Of a stretch of DNA of 64,000 bases, positions 27,416-60,099 are shown piece by piece. How positions within the stretch are numbered: the stretch's first letter is position 1; every line of letters begins with the position of its first letter. This DNA is from Bacteroidales bacterium (lineage in GTDB: Bacteria > Bacteroidota > Bacteroidia > Bacteroidales > Rikenellaceae). The translations under genes and the position numbers were made by a program. Below the pieces are notes generated by a model. That model saw only the letters and a program-made list of their open reading frames with translations, was not told the DNA's origin and made no database searches. The stretch lies in assembly GCA_910575495.1 (NCBI GenBank), contig CAJTFS010000002.1:372001-436000 (forward strand), read 5' to 3'.

Positions 27416-28642
27416 CTACACCACCCTCTCGTAATGAATGGCGATCTCAACGCCGTTGAACTCCCACGGACTGTTCGTGAATTTCTGCAACGGAACGCTG
27501 CGGTCGTCGAACCACGCTTTCACGACGAACTTGTTGTTTTTGCCGGGGTTGTCGCGGCAACGGAACTCCGTAAGACTCGTATTGCGGTGGATGTCGATCG
27601 ACTCCAAGCGGTTGGAGTTGCAGAACAACTCCTCCAATTTCACGTTGGCGGAGACATCGAGGACGACCAGCCGATTGTCGATGCAGGACAATGTTTTCAA
27701 GAGCGTATTGCGGCTGACATCCAGCGCAGTCAGGCTGTTGGCGAAGCACGACAAGGAGAGCAGGGCCGTATTGCCGGTCACGTCCAACGTCGTCAACTTG
27801 TTATTGCTGCAACCGAGAACCGCCAGATTCGGACTACGGCTTACCGACAACGAAACCAACTTGTTATTGTCGCAATACAGCGTCTCCAACGCGGAGTTGA
27901 CGGACAGATCGAGCTTCGTCAGCTTGTTGTTGGCGCAGTTCAGTTCTTTCAAAGCGGGATTGGCCGAGAGATCGAGGCCGGTCAGCTCGTTGCCGCGGCA
28001 GTTGAGCATCTCCAATGCAGAATGAGCGGAAAGCTCCAGCGCGGTGAGCTTGTTATAGCTGCAATCCAGGCGGATCAGCGATTCGAAGAACCGGAGCCCG
28101 GCCAAAGACGTCAACTCGACACAATCGCTGCCGGACGCCACCGAGAGATCGATGTCGCGGATATTCTTCACCTCGCCGAAAGCGATATGCCCGGCATCGG
28201 CCACATAACCGTGCTTCTGCAACTCGCGGGCGAAATCGGGATCGAAAACCGACGCAATATCCGTTGCGTCGTTCATGGCCTGCTGGACGACGGTCAGCCG
28301 GCACGACTCGCCGGCATAGGAAATATCGACGAAAGCCCTGCGCTCCGTCGTGGCAAAACGACTGCCGGCAGTCAGCGTCAGCGTGGCCTCGCCGGCCGCT
28401 CCGTTCGCGGGGGGGGGTAAAACGAGCCATCCGGAATCGCCCTCGTCGTATGCGACCGACGCTTCCCAGTCGACGTTGACTGCGAACGGAACCTGCACCT
28501 CACCGCCTTCGGCAGCGATCGTATATTCCACGGTCCCGATGGTCAGCTCCGGAGGGAGCTGCCGGTCATCCAAACTCTCCCTGCTGCAACCGGCAAAAAG
28601 AGCCGCCAGGAGAAACAAGCCAAAGATATTTTTCATCGTCAT
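27416..28642 (-). CDS. BACON-domain leucine-rich-repeat lipoprotein
   Basis: A surface lipoprotein of 408 residues (lipobox Cys in ALFAGC; a start two codons later at MKNIF is equally likely). A BACON-like Ig domain occupies about 35-125 (VEYTIAAEGGEVQVPFAVNVDWEAS, then VTVVQQA-like RLTVVQQAMND). From about 165 to 370 there are at least nine 21-residue leucine-rich repeats of the form L.CSNNKLT.LDVTGNTAL, typical of Bacteroidetes surface LRR proteins. The role may be binding of host or dietary glycoprotein (inference). A nine-base G/C homopolymer lies inside the BACON segment (the PPP codons), so the frame could switch by slippage. Confidence 0.83.
   Translation of the reverse strand: MTMKNIFGLFLLAALFAGCSRESLDDRQLPPELTIGTVEYTIAAEGGEVQVPFAVNVDWEASVAYDEGDSGWLVLPPPANGAAGEATLTLTAGSRFATTERRAFVDISYAGESCRLTVVQQAMNDATDIASVFDPDFARELQKHGYVADAGHIAFGEVKNIRDIDLSVASGSDCVELTSLAGLRFFESLIRLDCSYNKLTALELSAHSALEMLNCRGNELTGLDLSANPALKELNCANNKLTKLDLSVNSALETLYCDNNKLVSLSVSRSPNLAVLGCSNNKLTTLDVTGNTALLSLSCFANSLTALDVSRNTLLKTLSCIDNRLVVLDVSANVKLEELFCNSNRLESIDIHRNTSLTEFRCRDNPGKNNKFVVKAWFDDRSVPLQKFTNSPWEFNGVEIAIHYERVV
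28409..28417. repeat. G9 homopolymer inside the BACON/LRR coding region
   Basis: Nine consecutive G on plus encode three Pro codons on minus. Insertion or loss of one base would truncate the lipoprotein soon after the signal peptide and part of the BACON domain. Confidence 0.8.
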
Positions 28643-28688
28643 CTTATTTCAGGAAGATATGCGGGCGCACGTCCCGAAAACGCGCACC

Positions 28689-28697
28689 GGGGGGGGG
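28689..28697. repeat. G9 homopolymer at the BACON/LRR transcription start
   Basis: Nine G on plus (C9 on minus) directly downstream of the -7 box, at the expected start of transcription. Confidence 0.8.
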
Positions 28698-28705
28698 CAA
28701 AGGTA
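28698..28705 (-). promoter_or_regulatory. -7 promoter box TACCTTTG for the BACON/LRR gene
   Basis: Exact consensus on minus, followed at once by the C9 tract and a leader of about 50 bases. Confidence 0.75.
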
Positions 28706-28725
28706 ACGACTTTCCGCCAACAAAC

Positions 28726-31551
<2,826 letters not shown>

Positions 31552-31570
31552 CGGTAAAGAAACGTACGGC

Positions 31571-35091: not shown

Positions 35092-36810
35092 ATGGCAACC
35101 ATTTCACGGCAAGAATACAACAACCTGTTCGGACCGACCGTCGGCGACAAGATCCGCCTCGGCGACACCGACCTCTACGTGGAGATCGAGAAGGATCTGC
35201 GCGAATACGGCGACGAGATCGTCTACGGCGGCGGCAAGACGCTGCGCGACGGCATGGGACTGGCCAACACGATGACCTCGAAGGAAGGGGCGCTCGACAT
35301 CGTCATCACCAACGTGACGATCATCGACCCGATCCTGGGCGTAGTGAAGGCCGACGTGGGCATCAAGGACGGACTGATCGCCGGCATCGGCAAGTCGGGT
35401 AACCCCAACACCATGCACGGCGTGCACCCCGACCTGGTGACCGGAGTGGCGACCGACGCCATTTCGGGCGAACACCTGATCCTGACGGCGGCCGGCATCG
35501 ACGGCCATGTGCACCTCATATCGCCCCAGCAGGCCTACGCCTCGCTGAGCAACGGCATCACCACCCTCTTCGGCGGCGGCATCGGCCCCACCGACGGCAC
35601 CAACGGCACGACCATCACCTCAGGCAAGTGGAACACCGAACGCATGCTCGAATCGCTGGAAGGGATTCCGGTGAACGTGGGCATGCTGGGCAAGGGCAAC
35701 TGCTCGGTGGCCCAGTCGCTCGAAGAACAGATCGAAGCGGGCGTCTGCGGACTGAAGGTCCACGAAGACTGGGGCTCCACGCCGGAAGCGATCCGCGCGG
35801 CGCTCGACGTGGCCGACCGCTACGACGTACAGGTGGCCATCCACTCCGACACGCTCAACGAAGGCGGCTACGTGGAAGACACGATCGCCGCCATGGACGG
35901 CCGCACGATCCACACCTACCACACCGAAGGAGCCGGCGGAGGCCACGCCCCCGACCTGCTGAAGGTGGCGTCGATGCCCTACGTGCTGCCGTCGTCGACC
36001 AACCCCACGCTGCCGTTCGGCATCAACTCGCAGGCCGAACTCTTCGACATGATCATGGTGTGCCACAACCTCAATCCGAAGATTCCGTCGGACGTGGCGT
36101 TCGCCGAAAGCCGCGTACGCCCCGAGACGCAGGCGGCCGAAAACGTGCTGCACGACCTGGGCGTGCTGTCGATGGTCTCGTCCGACTCGCAGGCCATGGG
36201 CCGCATCGGCGAATCGTTCATGCGCACGTTCCAGACCGCCTCGTACATGAAGAACGCCTGCGGCAAACTGGCCGAAGACGCCGACGGCAACGACAACTTC
36301 CGCGTACTGCGCTACCTGGCCAAGGTGACGATCAACCCGGCCGTGACCTTCGGCGTATCGGACTACCTGGGCTCCGTGGAGAAAGGCAAGGTGGCCGACC
36401 TGGTGCTGTGGGAGCCCCGGTTCTTCGGCGCCAAGCCCAAGATGGTCATCAAGGGCGGCGTCATCAACTGGGCCAACATGGGCGATCCGAACGCCTCGCT
36501 GCCCACGCCGCAGCCGTGCTACTATCGTCCGATGTTCGGAGCCTGCGGGCGCGCGCTGCCGCAGACCTGCATCTCGTTCGTGTCGAACGCAGCCTACGAA
36601 AGCGGCATCAAGGAACGCCTGGCGCTCGAACGCATGGTGCTGCCCGTGCGCCGCACGCGCCAACTTACGAAATTCGACATGGTGCGCAACGGCGGCACGC
36701 CGCGCATCGACGTCGACCCCGAGACCTTCGAAGTACTGGTCGACGGCGTACGCACCTACGTCCAGCCGGCCCGCGAATTCCCTCTGGGCCAGCTCTACTG
36801 GTTCAGCTAA
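35092..36810 (+). CDS. ureC: Urease alpha (catalytic) subunit
   Basis: The nickel metallohydrolase that splits urea to ammonia and carbamate. The 572 residues carry every nickel ligand: both His in GIDGHVHLISPQQ, the carbamylated Lys in GLKVHEDWGS, His in AIHSDTLNEGG, His in HTEGAGGGHAPD, and Asp in SSDSQAMGR. The mobile flap retains the catalytic Cys-His in MVCHNLNPKIPSD. Klebsiella has CHHLD there, so a second His and an Asp are replaced by Asn. Overall length is standard. It lies six bases after ureB. Confidence 0.97.
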   Translation: MATISRQEYNNLFGPTVGDKIRLGDTDLYVEIEKDLREYGDEIVYGGGKTLRDGMGLANTMTSKEGALDIVITNVTIIDPILGVVKADVGIKDGLIAGIGKSGNPNTMHGVHPDLVTGVATDAISGEHLILTAAGIDGHVHLISPQQAYASLSNGITTLFGGGIGPTDGTNGTTITSGKWNTERMLESLEGIPVNVGMLGKGNCSVAQSLEEQIEAGVCGLKVHEDWGSTPEAIRAALDVADRYDVQVAIHSDTLNEGGYVEDTIAAMDGRTIHTYHTEGAGGGHAPDLLKVASMPYVLPSSTNPTLPFGINSQAELFDMIMVCHNLNPKIPSDVAFAESRVRPETQAAENVLHDLGVLSMVSSDSQAMGRIGESFMRTFQTASYMKNACGKLAEDADGNDNFRVLRYLAKVTINPAVTFGVSDYLGSVEKGKVADLVLWEPRFFGAKPKMVIKGGVINWANMGDPNASLPTPQPCYYRPMFGACGRALPQTCISFVSNAAYESGIKERLALERMVLPVRRTRQLTKFDMVRNGGTPRIDVDPETFEVLVDGVRTYVQPAREFPLGQLYWFS

Positions 36811-60090: not shown

Positions 60091-60099
60091 GGGGGGGGG
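60091..60099 (+). repeat. G9 homopolymer at the ribosome-binding position of the Xre gene
   Basis: Nine G end two bases before the ATG, where a Shine-Dalgarno sequence would sit. Slippage would change spacing or initiation of the regulator. Confidence 0.8.

Follow-up and report, generated by a model that had tools for sequence, protein, structure and literature searches.

Contingency loci built on poly-G/C tracts are well described in Campylobacter jejuni, Neisseria and Helicobacter, where tracts near nine nucleotides in length occur many times per genome, are concentrated in surface-protein genes and include out-of-frame alleles. In the Neisseria porA/opc type, the homopolymer lies between two core promoter elements, and slippage changes the spacing between them. 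To our knowledge, phase variation in gut Bacteroidales has been credited mainly to DNA inversion. A 2025 review treats phase variation in Bacteroides as inversion (PMC11868660). We found no description of slipped-strand phase variation in Alistipes in the literature searched, which did not extend to preprints or subscription journals.

The window analyzed here, by which we mean the whole stretch of 64,000 nt under study, comes from a 2.22 Mb assembly that a whole-genome search places in the genus Alistipes together with its closest relative, G012. On the minus strand at 27416–28642, the open reading frame list and Pfam profile matches identify a gene for a lipoprotein of 408 residues, which comprises a lipoprotein signal peptide with a lipobox cysteine, a BACON-like domain and leucine-rich repeats. 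The repeats match LRR_4 (7e-18), and the BACON-like region matches BACON_2 (1.3e-4) and BACON (1.6e-3), both under their gathering scores. A sequence-only reading of this DNA had reported two nine-base tracts in the gene, and both are present at exactly that length, the plus strand reading nine G at 28409–28417 and again at 28689–28697. That reading described the first as three proline codons in which a slip would cause frameshift and truncation. We agree: on the minus strand the tract is CCC CCC CCC, encoding Pro76–Pro78 in frame, and computed translation runs through 9 more codons to a stop when one base is lost, and through 117 foreign codons to a stop when one base is gained. By sequence, a change of a single unit is therefore sufficient to abolish or alter the product.

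The second tract begins, as had been claimed, directly after the minus-strand −7 box TACCTTTG (28698–28705), at the predicted transcription start, and its 3′ end is 46 nt ahead of the lipoprotein ATG. The box fits the Bacteroides −7 consensus TAnnTTTG (PMC7366714). The nearest upstream candidate for a −33 element, a TTTG at 28721–28724 on the same strand, is separated from the −7 box by only 15 nt, and the stop codon of the upstream gene, uvrA (28726–31563, minus strand; open reading frame and profile match), adjoins the promoter. We ruled out an invertible promoter of the Bacteroides type for this gene because no suitable inverted repeats flank the promoter, the only pair found there being 11 nt long and overlapping coding sequence. 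A third tract, G9 at 60091–60099 on the plus strand, lies 2 nt ahead of the start codon (ATG) of a gene for a small HTH regulator; it is also nine long in G012, with diverged flanks, and a short upstream open reading frame ends across it. Elsewhere in the window, the minus strand at 35246–35540 matches the Rfam family 5_ureB_sRNA (59.7 bits), which is unexpected for the genus.

The sequence-only reading had taken two such tracts in a single gene as a strong sign of phase variation. Taken alone the pair is insufficient: when 8-mer G/C matches were counted in 100 dinucleotide shuffles of the window, the 6 observed compared with 3.2 expected and were reached in 13 of the shuffles, an unremarkable result. 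The spectrum of run lengths has a different form. The window contains 35 G/C runs of length 5, none of length 6, 7 or 8, and three of length 9, and a first-order Markov model predicts about 23, 6, 1.4 and 0.3 runs of 6, 7, 8 and 9; not one of 60 Markov simulations either yielded three 9-runs or lacked runs of 6–8. The lipoprotein gene thus carries long homopolymers beyond chance expectation in coding or promoter DNA. Moreover, the window tracts belong to a genome-wide and genus-wide class, a point absent from the earlier reading. Runs of 7, 8, 9 and 10 or more number 9, 15, 47 and 2 in the source genome and 249, 331, 794 and 71 summed over 37 Alistipes genomes, compared with 608, 149, 62 and 31 in 24 genomes from other families of the same order. 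Runs of nine outnumber runs of eight in 31 of the 37 Alistipes genomes versus 2 of the 24 others. In 1.42 Mb of G012, runs of nine number 37 where about 2 are expected, an enrichment of about twenty-fold, and there is a three- to five-fold depletion of runs of six and seven (74 and 8, with expectations of about 200 and 42). One genome from another family of the order (G044) has 4, 5, 10 and 7 runs in the length classes 7, 8, 9 and 10 or more, those of the last class all lying on one strand; its poly-G tracts are possibly an independent system.

A purely mutational origin of the preferred length has to be weighed against these data. G/C runs longer than about six might expand in Alistipes and runs longer than nine contract, so that nine accumulates wherever little harm is done; surface genes and spacers would then merely tolerate the tracts, and frameshifted alleles would be slightly harmful by-products with no selected switch. 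The length-9 peak is equal in coding and noncoding DNA, as this explanation would have it, and many tracts (about 21 of 47 in the source genome, and most of the 21 in G023) are intergenic with no visible promoter role, which makes a mutational bias toward nine a live partial rival. The depletion of runs of six and seven instead suggests selection against mutable runs elsewhere in the genome. We judge a mutational tendency toward length nine probably to contribute, but regard the mutational explanation by itself as unlikely.

Among 180 Alistipes genomes, only G012 contains a close copy of the lipoprotein stretch. The two proteins are 81% identical, and the coding tract of G012 is likewise exactly C9 and in frame, so that it has length nine in both genomes compared, which represent two species. 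No length variation is visible at the coding tract because this sole close relative also has length nine. In G134 and G151, more distantly related members of the family have their in-frame C9 elsewhere, just after the lipobox. Of the shared tracts that could be aligned between the source genome and G012, 12 of 13 are exactly nine in both, often with diverged flanks. The retention of nine in conserved coding tracts while their flanks diverge argues against a mutational attractor, and the shared length in 12 of 13 tracts speaks for stable tracts without appreciable slippage, kept at nine by reading frame and chance. Synonymous sites within the tracts are conserved at 28 of 33 positions versus 72% elsewhere, a difference that is not significant (p 0.08) and hence is suggestive only.

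We compared the reading frames on the two sides of every tract, calling each frame by codon usage, scored with the window as training set, and restricting the counts to tracts strongly coding on both sides. Tracts of length nine are in frame in 24 of 25 cases. At lengths 8 and 10, one tract is in frame and six of seven are strongly shifted (Fisher p 5e-5 for 9 versus 8/10), in each case by exactly the tract length minus nine; a further shifted tract, L200, is weak. The shifted alleles are recognizable genes once their two halves are translated in separate frames. They include a SusC/TonB receptor with a recognizable SusC plug (L137), two hybrid two-component regulators with Reg_prop/HisKA domains (L211 and L212), a lipoprotein (L206) and, in the source genome, a kelch-type protein (L191), and the one shifted tract of length nine lies in a BACON lipoprotein (L176). 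L036 was considered as a frameshift at its G9 and rejected, since its reading frame continues unchanged across the tract. Thus, within the same tract class across the genus, length differences occur together with out-of-frame alleles.

The in-frame tract genes of the source genome encode lipoproteins, TonB receptors, a GH26 lipoprotein, a glycosyltransferase, a sulfatase-like membrane protein and a hybrid regulator; about 12 of the 17 products were assigned by inspection, as a raw count, to the surface or outer membrane. Two of the source-genome lipoproteins, L010 and L027, have a DNA/RNA non-specific endonuclease domain and an in-frame C9 near residue 80 in both. The codon phase of the tracts varies among 0, 1 and 2, indicating that the relevant unit is the nucleotide run and not the peptide. 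Peptide-level selection for Pro3 or Gly3 was rejected, since the tracts fall in every codon phase and also between genes.

In the assemblies, nearly all coding tracts keep the reading frame, as stable sequence would too, and this counts against a switch. If the tracts were stable, the shifted alleles would be sequencing or assembly errors, and many of the genomes used are indeed metagenome assemblies. Such an artefact should, however, also affect genomes from other families of the order, and in those of the same collection run counts fall off with length in the ordinary way; a sequencing artefact is therefore disfavored. Intergenic tracts, which are free of any reading frame, also peak at nine, and one promoter, described below, differs in tract length across species. 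We consider stable tracts with erroneous alleles very improbable.

Several of the intergenic tracts sit between a TTTG and a TAnnTTTG. We searched for this arrangement with the pattern TTTG-N0-3-G8-N6-14-TAnnTTTG, using the reversed pattern as a control. Poly-G between −33 and −7 boxes was found at 87–88 sites in 52 of 151 Alistipes genomes, and the control gave none. The pattern admits spacers of 14–25 nt, yet 45 of the 76 distinct promoter sites have one of 18 nt. The downstream gene, where it could be called, starts roughly 20–290 nt from the promoter, and several of these genes encode OMP_b-brl outer-membrane barrels, CarboxypepD_reg proteins or an M16 peptidase. This non-random placement, in promoters that drive outer-membrane proteins, is difficult to reconcile with tracts that are merely tolerated. 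One orthologous promoter carries G11, G10, G11, G9 and G9 in five species. The promoter and coding arrangements can also coincide on one gene: the SusC-type gene L208 (G002) has a G9 promoter spacer and an out-of-frame G10 in its signal peptide, the latter found by hand beyond the frame counts. To this extent a double arrangement of tracts, the basis of the earlier argument, does occur in the genus. Poly-G promoters are also found in a repeated unit, in which the promoter precedes a stretch of about 100 nt that contains a hairpin, a conserved GGGATGAAGACGCAACTCACATCC core and a strong terminator. This unit occurs at L029, L033 and L050 near 1501 in the source genome and at L123 in G012, with related promoters at L292–L295; a search of it against Rfam returned nothing at the gathering threshold, and it is a candidate small RNA under a poly-G promoter.

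The second tract of the lipoprotein gene is of another kind. The usual Alistipes promoter tract lies between the −33 and −7 boxes, unlike the start-site tract of the window, and a poly-G promoter-spacer switch can be set aside for the lipoprotein gene because its tract sits after the −7 box. The sequence-only reading had proposed that slippage or reiterative transcription at this position would change expression. From its position directly after the box, the C-run could act as a separate control, with reiterative transcription on it, or a change in how far the first purine lies from the −7 box, setting promoter output. The distance from the box to the GG is indeed 9 nt in the window and 6 nt in G012, and the two genomes share an identical stretch of about 30 nt around the box. 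However, G012 has T-C5 in place of C9, and poly-C directly after a −7 box was found at 15 sites in 180 Alistipes genomes versus about 20 for a reversed-pattern control, and we therefore do not regard start-site C-tracts as a promoter class that recurs in the genus. Judged from the nearest species, the C9 probably arose by expansion of a shorter run, a history that would suit the mutational explanation considered above. The tract may change where transcription starts or how strong it is, which is speculative, and we find a dedicated role in expression control doubtful.

The interpretation of these results that we favor, and to which we assign a probability of roughly 0.6, is that the in-frame C9 of the lipoprotein gene is a slipped-strand contingency site and one of a genus-wide set of reading-frame and promoter-spacer tracts. 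Polymerase slippage on the C9 would yield a tract of 8 or 10, the frame would shift after residue 78 with loss of the leucine-rich repeat part of the lipoprotein, and a reverse slip would restore it. In the genus, one group of tracts with consensus length nine would act in this way within the frames of lipoprotein, SusC/TonB receptor and hybrid two-component regulator genes. A second group, between the −33 and −7 boxes of outer-membrane-protein promoters, would alter the box spacing around 18 nt. We infer that slipping is reversible, takes place within a population and changes expression. The earlier proposal of phase variation by slippage accordingly holds up for the in-frame tract through the evidence from its class, namely the frameshifts at lengths 8 and 10 and the promoter that varies among 9, 10 and 11, and fares poorly for the start-site tract. 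Because G/C9 runs occur in surface genes and promoters and altered lengths can break genes, the lipoprotein gene probably belongs to a large set of random on/off switches in Alistipes. We hold at even odds the wider proposal that phase variation by strand slippage is a programme of the whole genus, with nine as the preferred tract length, acting on the frames of surface proteins and regulators and on −33/−7 spacing, sometimes with both on a single gene. If this is so, cells of a common gut genus would come to differ in their receptors and lipoproteins by a second route, one spread across dozens of surface genes and promoters and bearing on phage escape, glycan use and immune contact. A homopolymer system of this kind would be overlooked by inversion-finding software and masked in consensus assemblies, and the length-9 peak and the 18-nt spacer provide simple predictions that can be checked in existing read data.

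The Alistipes tracts resemble the contingency loci of Campylobacter jejuni, Neisseria and Helicobacter in tract length, number per genome, concentration in surface-protein genes and the presence of out-of-frame alleles. They differ in belonging to a commensal of the Bacteroidota and in having lengths that are unusually uniform at nine, and their switching is here predicted from sequence. The promoter set shares with the Neisseria porA/opc type the placement of a homopolymer between core elements, but does so in a −33/−7 promoter (TTTG / TAnnTTTG) with a modal spacing of 18 nt; the start-site tract of the window is not of this spacer type. With the invertible promoters and invertases of Bacteroides (PMC11868660), the proposed system has in common the stochastic control of surface structures in the Bacteroidales, whereas the variable element here is a homopolymer, and no suitable inverted repeats flank the lipoprotein promoter.
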